Below, piece by piece: positions 1 through 44,119 of a DNA stretch of 44,262 nucleotides. The position numbers and the translations under genes are program-made. The DNA is from Bernardetia sp. (GTDB lineage Bacteria; Bacteroidota; Bacteroidia; Cytophagales; Bernardetiaceae): the NCBI RefSeq assembly GCF_020630935.1, contig NZ_JAHDIG010000024.1, forward strand, positions 14,272-58,533, given 5' to 3'. Every line of letters begins with the position of its first letter. Position 1 is the first letter of the stretch. Under the pieces are notes generated by a model. That model saw nothing but the letters and a program-made list of their open reading frames with translations. It was not told the DNA's origin and did not search any database.

Positions 1-54
1 GCAGAACAGCGGTTTTTGGTACCGTTAGTTGAGGTTCGAGTCCTTGCGGGGCAA
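1..54 (+). tRNA. tRNA-Gln (TTG), 3' part only
   Basis: The window opens inside a tRNA. An anticodon arm is visible, with stem GCGGT/ACCGT around loop TTTTGGT, giving anticodon TTG. It is followed by a T arm (30-46, loop TTCGAGT) and the 3' acceptor strand CGGGGCA (47-53) with discriminator A at 54. The 5' acceptor and D arm lie before base 1. CCA is not encoded. A Rho-independent terminator follows directly. The glutamine identity rests on the anticodon. Confidence 0.85.
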
Positions 55-99: not shown

Positions 100-446
100 A
101 TGGAAAAATTCTAAAAAACATTCTAATTTTTCTATAAAAAATCGTATCTTAATAAATATTTATATTTTTTTACTTTCCTTTTGAATAACAGGTTATTTAG
201 AAATGTTTTTTCAATCAGACTGAAAAAAGCGTATTTTTAATGTCGGATATATTAGAAAAGAAGTGCGAACAGTTTTATTTTGAGCAGAGACTGTTTTTTT
301 GATAAAAAAGGAATCGTTTTTGAATTATTTTGAAATAATATGGGTTGAGTAATTGAATTTGAAGGAGTTAGAAATAGCAATCAACTACCTTAATTAAACA
401 AAACCCTTAGTTAATTGATTTATATTATTAGATATTGGATAAAATT
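100..446. other. AT-rich intergenic stretch, nothing recognised
   Basis: These 347 bases lie between the tRNA-Gln terminator and the first small ORF. They are very AT-rich and full of stops on both strands. I see no convincing TAnnTTTG promoter box, palindrome or RNA gene in them. Confidence 0.5.
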
Positions 447-40329: not shown

Positions 40330-41316
40330 TTAATTTTCATTCTTAAATGCCTGACGTGGCTTTATTTGAAGAATTTGGAATAACTCTTTATCCGATTTAT
40401 AATCTGGATTTGGCGTTGTGAGGAGTTTGTCTCCAGCAAAAATAGAGTTTGCACCTGCCAAAAAGCAAAGAGCTTGCTCTTCTACACTCATTCTGACACG
40501 TCCAGCCGACAAACGAACCATTGCTCTAGGCATAATAATTCTTGCTGTCGCTATCATTCTGACCATTTCCCAAACCGAAACTTTTTCTTGCTCTTCTAAT
40601 GGCGTTCCCTCAACAGGCACAAGTGCATTTACAGGCACAGATTCTGGATGCTCTGGAAGCGTTGCAAGCGTATGAAGCATTCCTATACGGTCTTCTTCTG
40701 CTTCTCCCATTCCGATAATTCCACCCGAACAAACTGAAATTCCACTCTTACGAACATTTTCTAACGTATCCAAACGATTAGAATAATCTCTAGTACTGAT
40801 AATTTTGTCGTAATATTCTTCGCTCGTATCCAAGTTGTGGTTGTAAGCATAAAGCCCTGCATCTTTGAGTTTTTGGGCTTGTTCTTCAGTAAGCATTCCA
40901 AGCGTACAACACACTTCCATTCCCATTTCGTTAATTTCTTTAACAGCATCAACAACTCTGTCAAACTCTCTTCCGTTACGTACTTCTCTCCAAGCTGCCC
41001 CCATACAAAAACGTGTACTACCAGATTCTTTGGCTTCTTTAGCTTTTGATATAATTTCTTGATTTTTTAAAAGACGGCTTGCCTCTACGTCAGTATGATA
41101 ACGTGCAGCCTGTGGACAATACGCACAATCTTCTGGACAGCCTCCAGTTTTGACAGACAAAAGCGTACAAACCTGTACTTCTGATGTTTCATGAAATTTA
41201 CGATGAACACTTGCTCCTTTATAAATCAATTCTAATATAGGTGTATTATAAATTTCTGCAATCTCTTGGCGTGTCCAATTCGTCTTGATAAGATGTGCTA
41301 GTGGTGTTTCAGACAT
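40330..41316 (-). CDS. bioB: biotin synthase
   Basis: BioB is a radical-SAM enzyme that inserts sulfur into dethiobiotin as the last step of biotin synthesis. The 328-residue protein carries the cluster motif [12 protein letters not shown] with Cys60, Cys64 and Cys67. The second-cluster residues lie in [16 protein letters not shown] and [10 protein letters not shown], and the conserved Arg in [16 protein letters not shown] and [12 protein letters not shown] are further signatures. No other bio genes lie in the window, so the pathway must be completed elsewhere or by uptake of precursors. Confidence 0.96.
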
Positions 41317-41849
41317 GTGTGTATATTTTTATATGAATGAGTTTTTAAATTCTAATTTATAAGAGATGAAAACCAATAAATTATTTTTTCATAAATCACA
41401 AACTATCGATAATAAATCATAACTGACTTCGCAAAGCTATCAGTTATCGTAACTGCTTTGATAAATCGTAATTTTTAATTCGTAATTGACTTTGTCGTCT
41501 TTCAGTTCGTAATTATTTCTCAAGTTACGCAAAAATAAAAAAAACAATTCCTAAATAAGGTTTCTGTACTTAAAATCCTTTTAAAATAGCCTTACAACAG
41601 GCTTTATTTTGTGTTTTTTAGAAAGGATTAAAAATTTGATAAAAAAAGACTAAAATCTATAAGCAAAATTGTGAAATCTTTAAAGATTAATTTCAATAAT
41701 TACGAAATACATAAACTTTAATTAATTTCATTAAAAAATTTGCAACAAAAGAATACTTTCCTTTACTTTGTATCATCAGAAAGGGAAAAACGTTATGAAT
41801 TTGTCAAAGCAATTTTCTCTAAATAATAAGATAGAATAAGGCAAGACAG
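41317..41849. other. intergenic region between bioB and the tRNA-like pair
   Basis: This 533-base stretch holds ATAACTGA/TCAGTTAT (41419-41426 and 41440-41447) and several repeats of the words AACTG and TCGTAATT, a degenerate repeat area. At the right end is a promoter-like pair (41740-41770) that would drive the tRNA-like genes. No coding frame is supported. Confidence 0.5.
41740..41770 (+). promoter_or_regulatory. probable promoter of the tRNA-like pair
   Basis: TTG at 41740-41742, a 20-base spacer and TTACTTTG at 41763-41770 match the phylum consensus TAnnTTTG at all but one position. It is about 187 bases before the first tRNA-like gene. Confidence 0.45.
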
Positions 41850-42090
41850 AAAAGTTTGCTTGTCTAATTAAATAAAAGTAGTAATCAATAAAAAACGAAC
41901 AGTAAAAAAATGATGCAGTCATTTAAAACTGGAAACTGATAACTGCTAACTGAAAATGTAGGATGGTGAAATTTTTGGCAGCCACGCCCCTCGGTCTCAG
42001 GGGTGAAGGTTTTGGGATAAATCAAATGACTATTCATAAATAATCATCTGACTAACTACTTCGTGAAGGTTCGAGTCCTTCTCCTACAGC
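41850..42090 (+). repeat. tandem repeat unit 1 (tRNA-like plus leader)
   Basis: This 241-base unit is repeated at 42103-42343 with a single difference (T at 41879, C at 42132). It contains a 107-base leader, which includes AACTGATAACTGCTAACTG, followed by the tRNA-like gene. Twelve unique bases separate the units. Confidence 0.93.
41957..42089 (+). tRNA. aberrant class II tRNA-like gene, copy 1
   Basis: Acceptor strands TGTAGGA (41957-41963) and TCCTACA (42082-42088) pair perfectly. The T arm GAAGG-TTCGAGT-CCTTC (42065-42081) is canonical. The D arm resembles tRNA-Leu (TGGTGAAATT...GGCAGCCACG). The anticodon stem CCCCT/AGGGG (41987-42003) encloses the loop CGGTCTC. This has no T at position 33, and the formal anticodon would be GTC (Asp), in conflict with the Leu-like body and the G discriminator. 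The variable arm (stem GAAG/CTTC) is extended by a 30-base hairpin (42022-42051), making the RNA 133 nt. It may be a tRNA-derived RNA, a pseudogene or a special-purpose tRNA. Confidence 0.65.
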
Positions 42091-42102
42091 TAAACAAGTA
42101 AA

Positions 42103-42343
42103 AAAAGTTTGCTTGTCTAATTAAATAAAAGCAGTAATCAATAAAAAACGAACAGTAAAAAAATGATGCAGTCATTTAAAACTGGAAACTGATAACTGCT
42201 AACTGAAAATGTAGGATGGTGAAATTTTTGGCAGCCACGCCCCTCGGTCTCAGGGGTGAAGGTTTTGGGATAAATCAAATGACTATTCATAAATAATCAT
42301 CTGACTAACTACTTCGTGAAGGTTCGAGTCCTTCTCCTACAGC
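42103..42343 (+). repeat. tandem repeat unit 2
   Basis: This is the second copy of the 241-base unit, offset by 253 bases from the first and 240/241 identical. It is followed directly by a terminator. Confidence 0.93.
42210..42342 (+). tRNA. aberrant class II tRNA-like gene, copy 2
   Basis: This copy is identical to copy 1 over all 133 bases, including the odd anticodon loop (42245-42251) and the variable-arm hairpin (42275-42304). The identity means that pairing in one copy cannot be tested by covariation with the other. Confidence 0.65.
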
Positions 42344-42350
42344 AACTATT

Positions 42351-42390
42351 AAAAGGCTTTTAGGTAAAAATTACCTAAAAGCCTTTTTTG
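42351..42390 (+). terminator. terminator of the tRNA-like transcript
   Basis: A perfect 17-bp stem (42351-42367 with 42371-42387), built on AAAAGGCTTTTAGGTAA, ends in T's, 8 bases after the second copy. It indicates that the pair is transcribed as a unit. Confidence 0.88.
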
Positions 42391-42617: not shown

Positions 42618-42690
42618 GGTGATGTAGCTCAGTTGGTAGAGCGTCGGACTGAAAATCCGTGTGTCGGTGGTTCGAGCCCACTCATCACCA
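42618..42690 (+). tRNA. tRNA-Phe (GAA)
   Basis: This is a complete 73-base tRNA. The acceptor GGTGATG/CATCACC has discriminator A; the D arm contains AGCTCAGTTGGTAGAGC; the anticodon loop CTGAAAA gives GAA; and the T loop is TTCGAGC. CCA is not encoded. Its 3' end faces the recombinase gene, so it is a likely attachment site. Confidence 0.96.
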
Positions 42691-42778
42691 CAAAAGTCAT
42701 ATTTTAGAGTAAATTTGGCTTATAGCGAGAAATAAATAAGTGTATTTCAGATTAGAAGTAGCTTACAAAAGTTTATTT

Positions 42779-42823
42779 ACCAAGTATTTATATAATTTAC
42801 ATTATATGGGTACTTGGTTTTTA
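42779..42823 (+). terminator. terminator after tRNA-Phe
   Basis: The stem ACCAAGTA (42779-42786) pairs with TACTTGGT (42811-42818), extended inside by TATATAAT/ATTATATG, and then a T run. Confidence 0.8.
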
Positions 42824-42928
42824 TCTTTATAGGTATCTCATATTTAAAGAGGTATCTTAATTAAGAACTTCAACCATTCCAAGTTTTGAATGACATTTAC
42901 TAATTGTTAAACATTCAAAATAAAGTAA

Positions 42929-44119
42929 ATGGTTATTAAAAAATTTAATCAGTTGCACGTTAATTTCTTTGCACAAAAATTATCTTCTGGCAGACTGTCC
43001 ATTAGGGTCAGAATAACAATACAAGGACAGAGGCAAAATATTGTTACTGGAATTGTGATTGATGAGCAAAAACAATGGAATAACCCTACAATCCGTTATC
43101 ATAAGCAAGCAAAGCAATATAATGATAGGCTTACGATAATTCACAATAATATTTTAGAGTGTTTTAACCGTTTAGAGAATTTAGGTCAAGAACCAACAGC
43201 TCTCATGGTTAAAGAAACATACAAAGGGAAAACAACACCTCCTATAACTGCTTTACAAATAGTTTATGATTACTTAGAAATCAAGAAACAGGAAAAAATA
43301 AGCGATAATACATTAGAGAAATATGATGTATTATGTAGAGATTTTGAAGCCTTTTTGATAAAGAACAACCTCAAAACCCTTTCTGCAAACGATTTTAAAA
43401 AAAATCACGCATACGACTTTTTCCTATATTGCAAATCAAGTCCAATTTCGGGCAAACCTAATTCAGATTTAGTTGCAAAACGTAAAGTATCTGCAATAAA
43501 AACAGCTTTAGAAATAGCCTTTGATAGAGAAAAAATACAGAAATACAATCTAGGTTCTACTTTAAGGGATATTAAAGTCAAGAGAAAAAAAGAAGAGATT
43601 ATTTTTCTTACACCAGAAGAAATACAACGACTACAAAATAAAAAAAACTTAGTTCAGCGTCTTGAAGAAGAAAGAGACGTTTTTTTGTTTCAATGTGCTA
43701 CTGGACTTGCTCATTGTGATGTTGTTTTGTTTAATCAAAATCCACACACAAAACTCATCAAGAGAGATGTGCAAGATTGGATTTTCTTTACAAGAGGCAA
43801 AAATGGTAAACGTATAGAAGTCCCCTTATTCTCTACAGCTAGACAGATTTTGGAAAAATATGACTATGTTTTACCAATAAAATCAAATGGAAAAAGAAAT
43901 GCTTATCTAAAAGAGATAGCAGACCTTTGTAGAATAGATAAAAACCTTACCACCCATGTAGCTAGACGTACATTTGGAACAATTTTACTTTGTTTCGAAA
44001 AAGTAAGTCTGCCTGTGGTTTCTAGGTTATTATCTCACTCCAGTATTTCAGTAACTCTTAAACATTATGCTGCTATACTTCCAGATTTTGTTGTAAAAGA
44101 GGTAAAACACCTACTGTAA
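42929..44119 (+). CDS. tyrosine recombinase / phage-type integrase
   Basis: This is a 396-residue site-specific recombinase of the type found on Bacteroidota conjugative and integrative elements. Residues 1-95 form an arm-binding domain, and 105-200 a SAM-like core-binding domain (ITALQIVYDYLEIKKQEKISDNTLEKYDVL). The catalytic domain has box I as TGLAHCD (258-264), where the usual first Arg is Ala261. It then has THVARRTFG with His343 and Arg346, His370 and the nucleophile Tyr380 in HSSISVTLKHY. Loss of the first Arg is known in this group (IntDOT-like, TGLAY type) and need not mean inactivity. It starts 238 bases after tRNA-Phe. Confidence 0.92.
   Translation: MVIKKFNQLHVNFFAQKLSSGRLSIRVRITIQGQRQNIVTGIVIDEQKQWNNPTIRYHKQAKQYNDRLTIIHNNILECFNRLENLGQEPTALMVKETYKGKTTPPITALQIVYDYLEIKKQEKISDNTLEKYDVLCRDFEAFLIKNNLKTLSANDFKKNHAYDFFLYCKSSPISGKPNSDLVAKRKVSAIKTALEIAFDREKIQKYNLGSTLRDIKVKRKKEEIIFLTPEEIQRLQNKKNLVQRLEEERDVFLFQCATGLAHCDVVLFNQNPHTKLIKRDVQDWIFFTRGKNGKRIEVPLFSTARQILEKYDYVLPIKSNGKRNAYLKEIADLCRIDKNLTTHVARRTFGTILLCFEKVSLPVVSRLLSHSSISVTLKHYAAILPDFVVKEVKHLL

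Follow-up and report, generated by a model that had tools for sequence, protein, structure and literature searches.

A conserved tRNA-like RNA family with an aspartate-type anticodon loop in Bacteroidota genomes and in phages

We analysed a 44,262-nt stretch of Bernardetia sp. DNA (hereafter the window) that carries two copies of a class II tRNA-like RNA. The RNA belongs to a real, conserved family, with a common structure, recurrent gene contexts and a distribution nested inside that of GatB. Judged by its sequence, the family is unlikely to serve in ordinary decoding. Our leading reading, which we hold tentatively, is that the RNA is processed like a tRNA and does not decode, is probably aspartylated and perhaps amidated, and is used outside normal codon reading. 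An RNA that is conserved in a major bacterial phylum has no entry in Rfam 15 and is not called by ARAGORN, though phages carry it and some of their stretches show no other tRNA-like gene. Its identity elements predict aspartate and then perhaps asparagine; if this is right, an aminoacyl-RNA would be used outside decoding, and otherwise the family would be a decoding tRNA that breaks the rules of its class.

The two copies are each 133 nt long, with an offset of 253 bp. They and their surroundings comprise the following features.

40330–41316, minus strand: bioB-like gene (Radical_SAM and BATS), the divergent neighbour of the RNA in the window genus
41739–41770, plus strand: promoter-like sequence, TTTG (41739–41742), 21 nt, TACTTTG (41764–41770), read from the sequence
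41957–42089, plus strand: tRNA-like RNA copy 1, U1 to G73, with C74 at 42090
41957–41963, plus strand: 5′ strand of the acceptor stem of copy 1, TGTAGGA, pairing with 42082–42088 (covariation)
41966–41985, plus strand: D arm of copy 1, stem GTG/CAC, loop with GG (covariation)
41987–42003, plus strand: anticodon arm of copy 1, CCCCT CGGTCTC AGGGG, loop at 41992–41998 (sequence and loop tallies)
42005–42062, plus strand: long variable arm of copy 1, base stem GAAG/CTTC
42065–42081, plus strand: T arm of copy 1, GAAGG TTCGAGT CCTTC (sequence and covariation)
42210–42342, plus strand: tRNA-like RNA copy 2, identical in sequence to copy 1
42351–42389, plus strand: terminator-like inverted repeat and T run 3′ of copy 2, read from the sequence
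42618–42691: tRNA-Phe (ARAGORN, Rfam), downstream of the copies
42929–44119: integrase (tyrosine-recombinase) gene, beside tRNA-Phe and downstream of the copies

The 7-bp acceptor stem, T arm, Leu-like D arm and anticodon arm described in the first-pass annotation are all present in both copies. The acceptor strands TGTAGGA and TCCTACA form 7 of 7 pairs, the D loop is of the Leu type, and G73 is followed by C at the 3′ end. The variable arm of copy 1 holds the conserved segments GGATAAA (42015–42021) and CTAAC (42052–42056) with an AT-rich hairpin between them. Copy 1 scores 136.6 bits with covariance model R1 (window 41957–42090). Elsewhere in the window, the tRNA-Phe followed by the tyrosine-recombinase gene (42618–44119) possibly marks an element integrated at tRNA-Phe, towards the contig end, and the window start holds the end (window 1–54) of a repeated tRNA-Gln sequence around an N run (G000:C24:14127–14325).

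Structure and distribution of the family

Folded alone, one copy (131 nt) is unexceptional (z −0.87, with 35 of 200 shuffles equally good). The beyond-chance evidence for a folded RNA is comparative. The first-pass annotation had proposed testing the arms for covariation, and all five helices covary. Across 79 distinct sequences, in an alignment fitted to the covariance model, 99.3% of cells are paired against a shuffled mean of 91.1, and 15 of 25 pairs are changed on both sides, as happens in 0 of 500 shuffles; when the partners are slid by 1–3 columns, pairs changed on both sides fall to 2–4. A plain MAFFT alignment of 31 sequences gives 12 of 25 such pairs.

The variable arm measures 28–120 nt inside its base stem. 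In 54 RNAs selected for the GACCAC motif and thus for an extended variable arm, that arm contains covarying stems of its own, and GACCAC is invariant; the corresponding part in the window genus is a simple AT-rich hairpin. A 77-nt form without the long arm is found in one genome (G021), and phage forms of 85–123 nt exist, which shows that the RNA can do without the large variable arm. The G021 form and some phage forms without the variable domain keep G73 and the loop.

A BLAST search recovered the RNA from 27 of 59 genomes, with 1–4 matches per congener, and a covariance model built from 31 sequences found it in 44 of the same genomes. Both sets include the window genome and all six congeners searched, and absence from close relatives is what the first-pass annotation had said would count against the locus. 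The 44 carriers comprise 41 at 80 bits or more, two matches cut by contig ends (G005, G023) and the short form of G021 (69.9 bits). No further match exceeds 62 bits; those that follow are, by length only, classed as class II tRNAs, being about that long. In 296 genomes of the phylum, with 11 candidates scored per genome so that some members may be missed, members occur in the window's order, in families f23, f24 and f27 of its class and in family f66 of another class. A pattern scan of named genomes matched at least 120 stretches, and the 80 matches listed are labelled as Bacteroidota, for example Chitinophaga, Dyadobacter, Spirosoma, Cyclobacterium, Algoriphagus and Saprospiraceae. Tandem arrays reach six copies (L028).

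The family is absent from Rfam 15 and from ARAGORN calls, and is in that sense new to the catalogues used. ARAGORN missed both window copies and called a single tRNA in the window, the tRNA-Phe. At the gathering score of Rfam 15 neither copy matched, tRNA-Phe again being the sole match in the window, and 12 family loci matched no family. At relaxed E the copies reached 14.5 bits against tRNA, and nothing relevant was found for the copies and further family sequences. PLSDB held no match to a window copy, so plasmid carriage is unsupported, and a literature search that covered few subscription papers found no description of such a family.

Other unusual tRNA-like genes were seen alongside. Default ARAGORN missed L048 (C2:2051–2169) and L047 (C63:23812–23936) of the window genome (G000) as well as L278–L283. 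All of these carry related insertions of ~45–60 nt in the anticodon arm with a conserved GGTCAA...TTACTTCT; besides the window genus, insertion-bearing genes of this kind occur elsewhere in its family and in a second family. Small tRNA introns are unusual in bacteria; L047 and L048 matched no Rfam intron family. A tRNA cluster with AT-rich acceptors, L051 (G000:C19:36100–37400), contains one tRNA whose anticodon seems to have 4 nt (gcag) and another, with short arms, that is read as Leu (caa).

Loop, acceptor and predicted aminoacylation

Loop positions were counted in 78 full-length host RNAs fetched without the loop pattern. T35, C36 and C38 occur in 78/78 and G34 in 70/78. Position 33 is T in 52, G in 16, A in 8 and C in 2, and position 37 is T in 69, C in 6 and G in 3, never A. 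The G33 singled out in the first-pass annotation is real in the window copies but local. Across the family the loop is mostly GUCUC, while the sequence of the anticodon stem is highly variable; AUC, CUC or UUC is read in some members. Viral scans blind to the loop gave 47 distinct RNAs, of which 41 have GUCUC or GUCCC though the stem is rewritten (one of these loops was read by eye). The other six, all 74–85 nt, read GUU (Asn).

The six GUU RNAs (L592:10069–10144, L565:2191–2266, L588:7632–7707, L585:1971–2055, L580:1624–1698 and L558:1378–1451) share the family acceptor, and three also share its Leu-type D arm. The loop tally has 305 distinct rows, with 30 left out (incomplete rows, ordinary phage tRNAs and three with a changed end pair), and it contains three misparsed loops, two from hosts and one viral. 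The 80 genome and 80 viral stretches drawn from a GTCTC-containing pattern cannot prove that loop, and the 71 viral stretches drawn from a pattern with 3′ acceptor letters cannot prove the acceptor.

The acceptor end is nearly invariant. U1-A72 is present in 169 of 170 full-length distinct host RNAs, and G2-C71, G73 and C74 in 170/170; in 60 phage RNAs, found by a pattern without acceptor letters, U1-A72 occurs in 58 and the other elements in all (three incomplete rows were left out of the position and acceptor counts). That U1-A72, G2-C71 and G73 are so well kept speaks for a function as an acceptor. According to the part of the source available to us, aspartate identity resides in G73, G34, U35, C36 and C38 with a minor contribution of G2-C71; U1-A72 confers amidation of Asp-tRNA-Asn, while G1-C72 with U20a prevents it in tRNA-Asp; and for leucine A73 is crucial, the G73 of tRNA-Ser acting against LeuRS (PMC9976931). 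Because it matches these identity sets, as far as that part of the source gives them, the RNA can be described as a Leu-type body that bears the loop of tRNA-Asp and the first pair of tRNA-Asn. The Asp set G34, U35, C36, C38 and G73 is complete in the window copies.

Our leading reading would run as follows. The RNA would be transcribed from its own promoter in cells and from tRNA operons in many phages, and would be cut out as tRNAs are. AspRS would aspartylate it via G34-U35-C36, C38, G73 and G2-C71, and the U1-A72 pair would open the aspartylated RNA to the amidotransferase GatCAB. The charged RNA would then be used outside normal codon reading, its supply probably being linked, in many cells, to a neighbouring regulator of the Lrp/AsnC type. 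Against charging with aspartate, the RNA lacks the G1-C72 of bacterial tRNA-Asp, and G34 is replaced in 8 of the 78 host RNAs; the long variable arm may also hinder AspRS.

The same elements could belong to a working minor tRNA that decodes the Asp codons GAU and GAC, with an odd class II body and with the G33 of the window genus tolerated. The GUC anticodon is kept in most members, U33 is present in 52/78 host and 56/60 phage RNAs, so that decoding is possible in U33-keeping lineages, and phage copies lie within arrays that hold as many as 25 tRNAs and in some cases a tmRNA. Decoding tRNAs have a purine at position 37. The family shares their cloverleaf (7-bp acceptor, D, anticodon and T arms) but not U33 and purine 37 as family features: 26 of the 78 host RNAs lack U33, and 75 have a pyrimidine at position 37. 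The same phage arrays, moreover, hold a normal tRNA-Asp(gtc) (L335, L347, L357, L368 and L374), 52 of the 59 genomes have a tRNA-Asp motif, including all seven of the window genus (in the window genome one such motif lies at a contig start and one within a gene with an insertion), and the members with AUC, CUC or UUC depart from the anticodon itself. We therefore consider an Asp-decoding tRNA unlikely, and the loop counts and the coexisting tRNA-Asp motifs support the earlier suggestion that the RNA is probably not an ordinary decoding tRNA.

Gene contexts in cells and phages

A gene for an Lrp/AsnC-type helix-turn-helix protein adjoins the RNA in 78 of 139 fetched loci, some of which are re-fetches of one place or too short to show the neighbour. 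It is divergent in 78/78, with a gap of 111–262 bp. Among 59 genomes, 43 have both the RNA and this Lrp subfamily, 11 have neither, 4 have Lrp only and 1 has the RNA only (p 5e-8, not corrected for kinship; the Lrp cut-off of E 1e-12 was set by us). By hand count from coordinates, the two are adjacent in 25 of the 43 genomes with both, and not in the window genus. The sole carrier without the Lrp subfamily is L031 (G014, 319–437, minus strand), in which the variable arm is degenerate and its CTAAC part missing. Of 126 loci, 70.6% have the box TAnnTTTG upstream of the RNA, compared with 17.6% after shuffling; the promoter-like box of the window is one base short of it and so falls outside the family pattern. 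Strict terminator-like sites occur 3′ of 37 of 132 family loci, against 0–2 in five shuffles.

Since U1-A72 predicts use of an amidotransferase, carriers are expected to have GatCAB. GatB is present in 44/44 RNA carriers and 9/15 RNA-free genomes of the 59 relatives, and in 18/18 carriers versus 3/43 RNA-free genomes of the same class (Fisher p 1e-12, not corrected for kinship). The genomes of families f23 and f24 divide into 13 with RNA and GatB together and 4 that lack the two. Outside the class (223 genomes, 11 candidates scored in each) GatB is found in 214 and the RNA in 2. The distribution of the RNA is nested inside that of GatB. Some observations count against the leading reading: GatB is common without the RNA outside the class and is present in 9 of the 15 RNA-free relatives, and Lrp is adjacent in just the 25 genomes mentioned, not in the window genus, and was found in none of the 80 phage stretches. 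GatCAB in RNA hosts may act on tRNA-Gln only.

In IMG/VR, an exact pattern that includes GTCTC matched 115 stretches, and 80/80 of those fetched contain a member. A second pattern matched 71 viral stretches, of which 62 newly searched gave 55 members (at least 75 bits), six GUU RNAs and one with nothing, bringing the verified viral stretches to 135. A loose variable-arm pattern in viral contigs matched mostly by chance (2 of 86 newly searched stretches with a member). In 48 of the 80 phage contigs a tRNA or tmRNA is found no more than 1 kb from the RNA, and in many the RNA is ~5 nt from a same-strand tRNA, a spacing that fits tRNA-type processing; stretch L335 holds the RNA with a tmRNA and 25 tRNAs, Asp among them. 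No other ARAGORN tRNA is present in 32 of the 80 fetched stretches, and around ten lone copies the ORFs on both sides look phage-like by eye. In LR756504.1, a 636-kb uncultured phage record, the RNA sits between tRNA-Thr and tRNA-Arg; in a search for annotated phage records, one query matched only this unannotated record and another matched none. Six further tRNA-like phage sequences of 99–149 nt have an AGTCAGG...CCTGACT-A acceptor (L317:6142–6262, L317:7682–7830, L323:4587–4706, L323:9979–10112, L325:4907–5050 and L596:12281–12379), all with weak model scores.

It is possible, if rather doubtful, that the RNA is a dedicated non-decoding adaptor, which AspRS would charge with Asp and GatCAB would amidate under AsnC-type control; the amino acid on this tRNA mimic would feed asparagine supply, sensing or transfer apart from codon reading, with phage copies keeping the route open.

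Some of the same contexts would suit a regulatory RNA that is never charged, in which the tRNA fold is protective, the loop or variable arm binds a protein or RNA, and expression is coupled to the divergent Lrp/AsnC gene. The invariable divergence of that gene in the linked loci and its co-occurrence with the RNA (uncorrected for kinship, as above) favour such a role, as do the loss of the CTAAC part in the Lrp-free L031 and the elaborate, covarying variable-arm domain with GACCAC in many members. No Lrp gene was found beside the copies in the 80 phage stretches, however; G021 and some phage copies dispense with the variable domain and retain G73 and the loop, and the kept acceptor elements argue for an acceptor role. 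On balance we doubt that the RNA is solely regulatory.

Phage carriage raises the further idea of a decoy or replacement against host defences that attack tRNAs, the host gene being the target of such defences. The two patterns' 115 and 71 viral stretches (80 and 55 verified), the 32 stretches without another tRNA call and the copy in the 636-kb record are in keeping with it. Because numerous hosts have the gene in their chromosome, frequently accompanied by a promoter box and a neighbouring regulator, decoying is unlikely as the first function, and we rate this explanation as quite improbable. A decayed tRNA-Leu gene or integration site, which the Leu-type D arm and the nearby integrase gene might suggest, can be set aside in view of the covariation, the deep conservation, the intact tandem copies and the position of the integrase gene next to tRNA-Phe. 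Of the first-pass proposals, the regulatory RNA and the decoy thus keep a low probability. That of a decayed gene is contradicted by a sequence conserved, and helices covarying, in several orders and in phages, and that of an attachment site finds no support at the window copies, where the integrase gene adjoins tRNA-Phe, or in the examined phage copies, which are surrounded by phage-like ORFs or belong to tRNA arrays.

Comparison with known RNAs

Compared with the genomes' own tRNA-Leu genes, the family RNA shares the D arm, the cloverleaf, a long variable arm directly after position 44 and two unpaired bases before the T stem. It differs from them in G73 (170/170 host, 60/60 phage RNAs) instead of A73, in having no Leu anticodon and in the length of its variable arm. 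With tRNA-Asp (loop CUGUCAC, against CUGUCUC here) it has in common G34, U35, C36, C38, G73 and G2-C71, whereas its class II body (except in the 77-nt G021 form), U1-A72, pyrimidine 37 and frequent loss of U33 set it apart. U1-A72 and G73 are also those of tRNA-Asn, the amidotransferase substrate, and the acceptor pattern caught the six GUU phage RNAs as well; the family has C36 rather than U36, and a class II body.

Like tmRNA, the RNA has tRNA-like ends, and 8 of the 80 phage stretches hold both. tmRNA lacks an anticodon arm and has G3-U70. The family RNA, in contrast, has an anticodon arm, its pair 3-70 is U-A in 77 of 78 sequences, and tmRNA coexists with it in relatives. The Rfam tmRNA models gave no match to the window copies. 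A ribosomal rescue RNA was considered and rejected, since 55 of the 59 genomes, including all six congeners, have a separate tmRNA that scores above the cut-off; the window genome assembly (G000) has no tmRNA over the cut-off, probably owing to an assembly gap. Y RNA (YrlA), a tRNA mimic, was considered as well, and no Rfam match was seen.

tRNA-Sec and allo-tRNAs have an unusual cloverleaf and a long variable arm as well, with longer acceptor stems than the 7-bp acceptor and 5-bp T stem found here, to judge from the portion available of PMC7609411. Another parallel is tRNA-Other of Bacillus cereus, a tRNA-like element that the accessible part of PMC3399842 reports as non-functional in translation. 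That element is described there from one strain, beside an island and within longer transcripts, whereas the RNA described here forms a covarying family across orders and phages.
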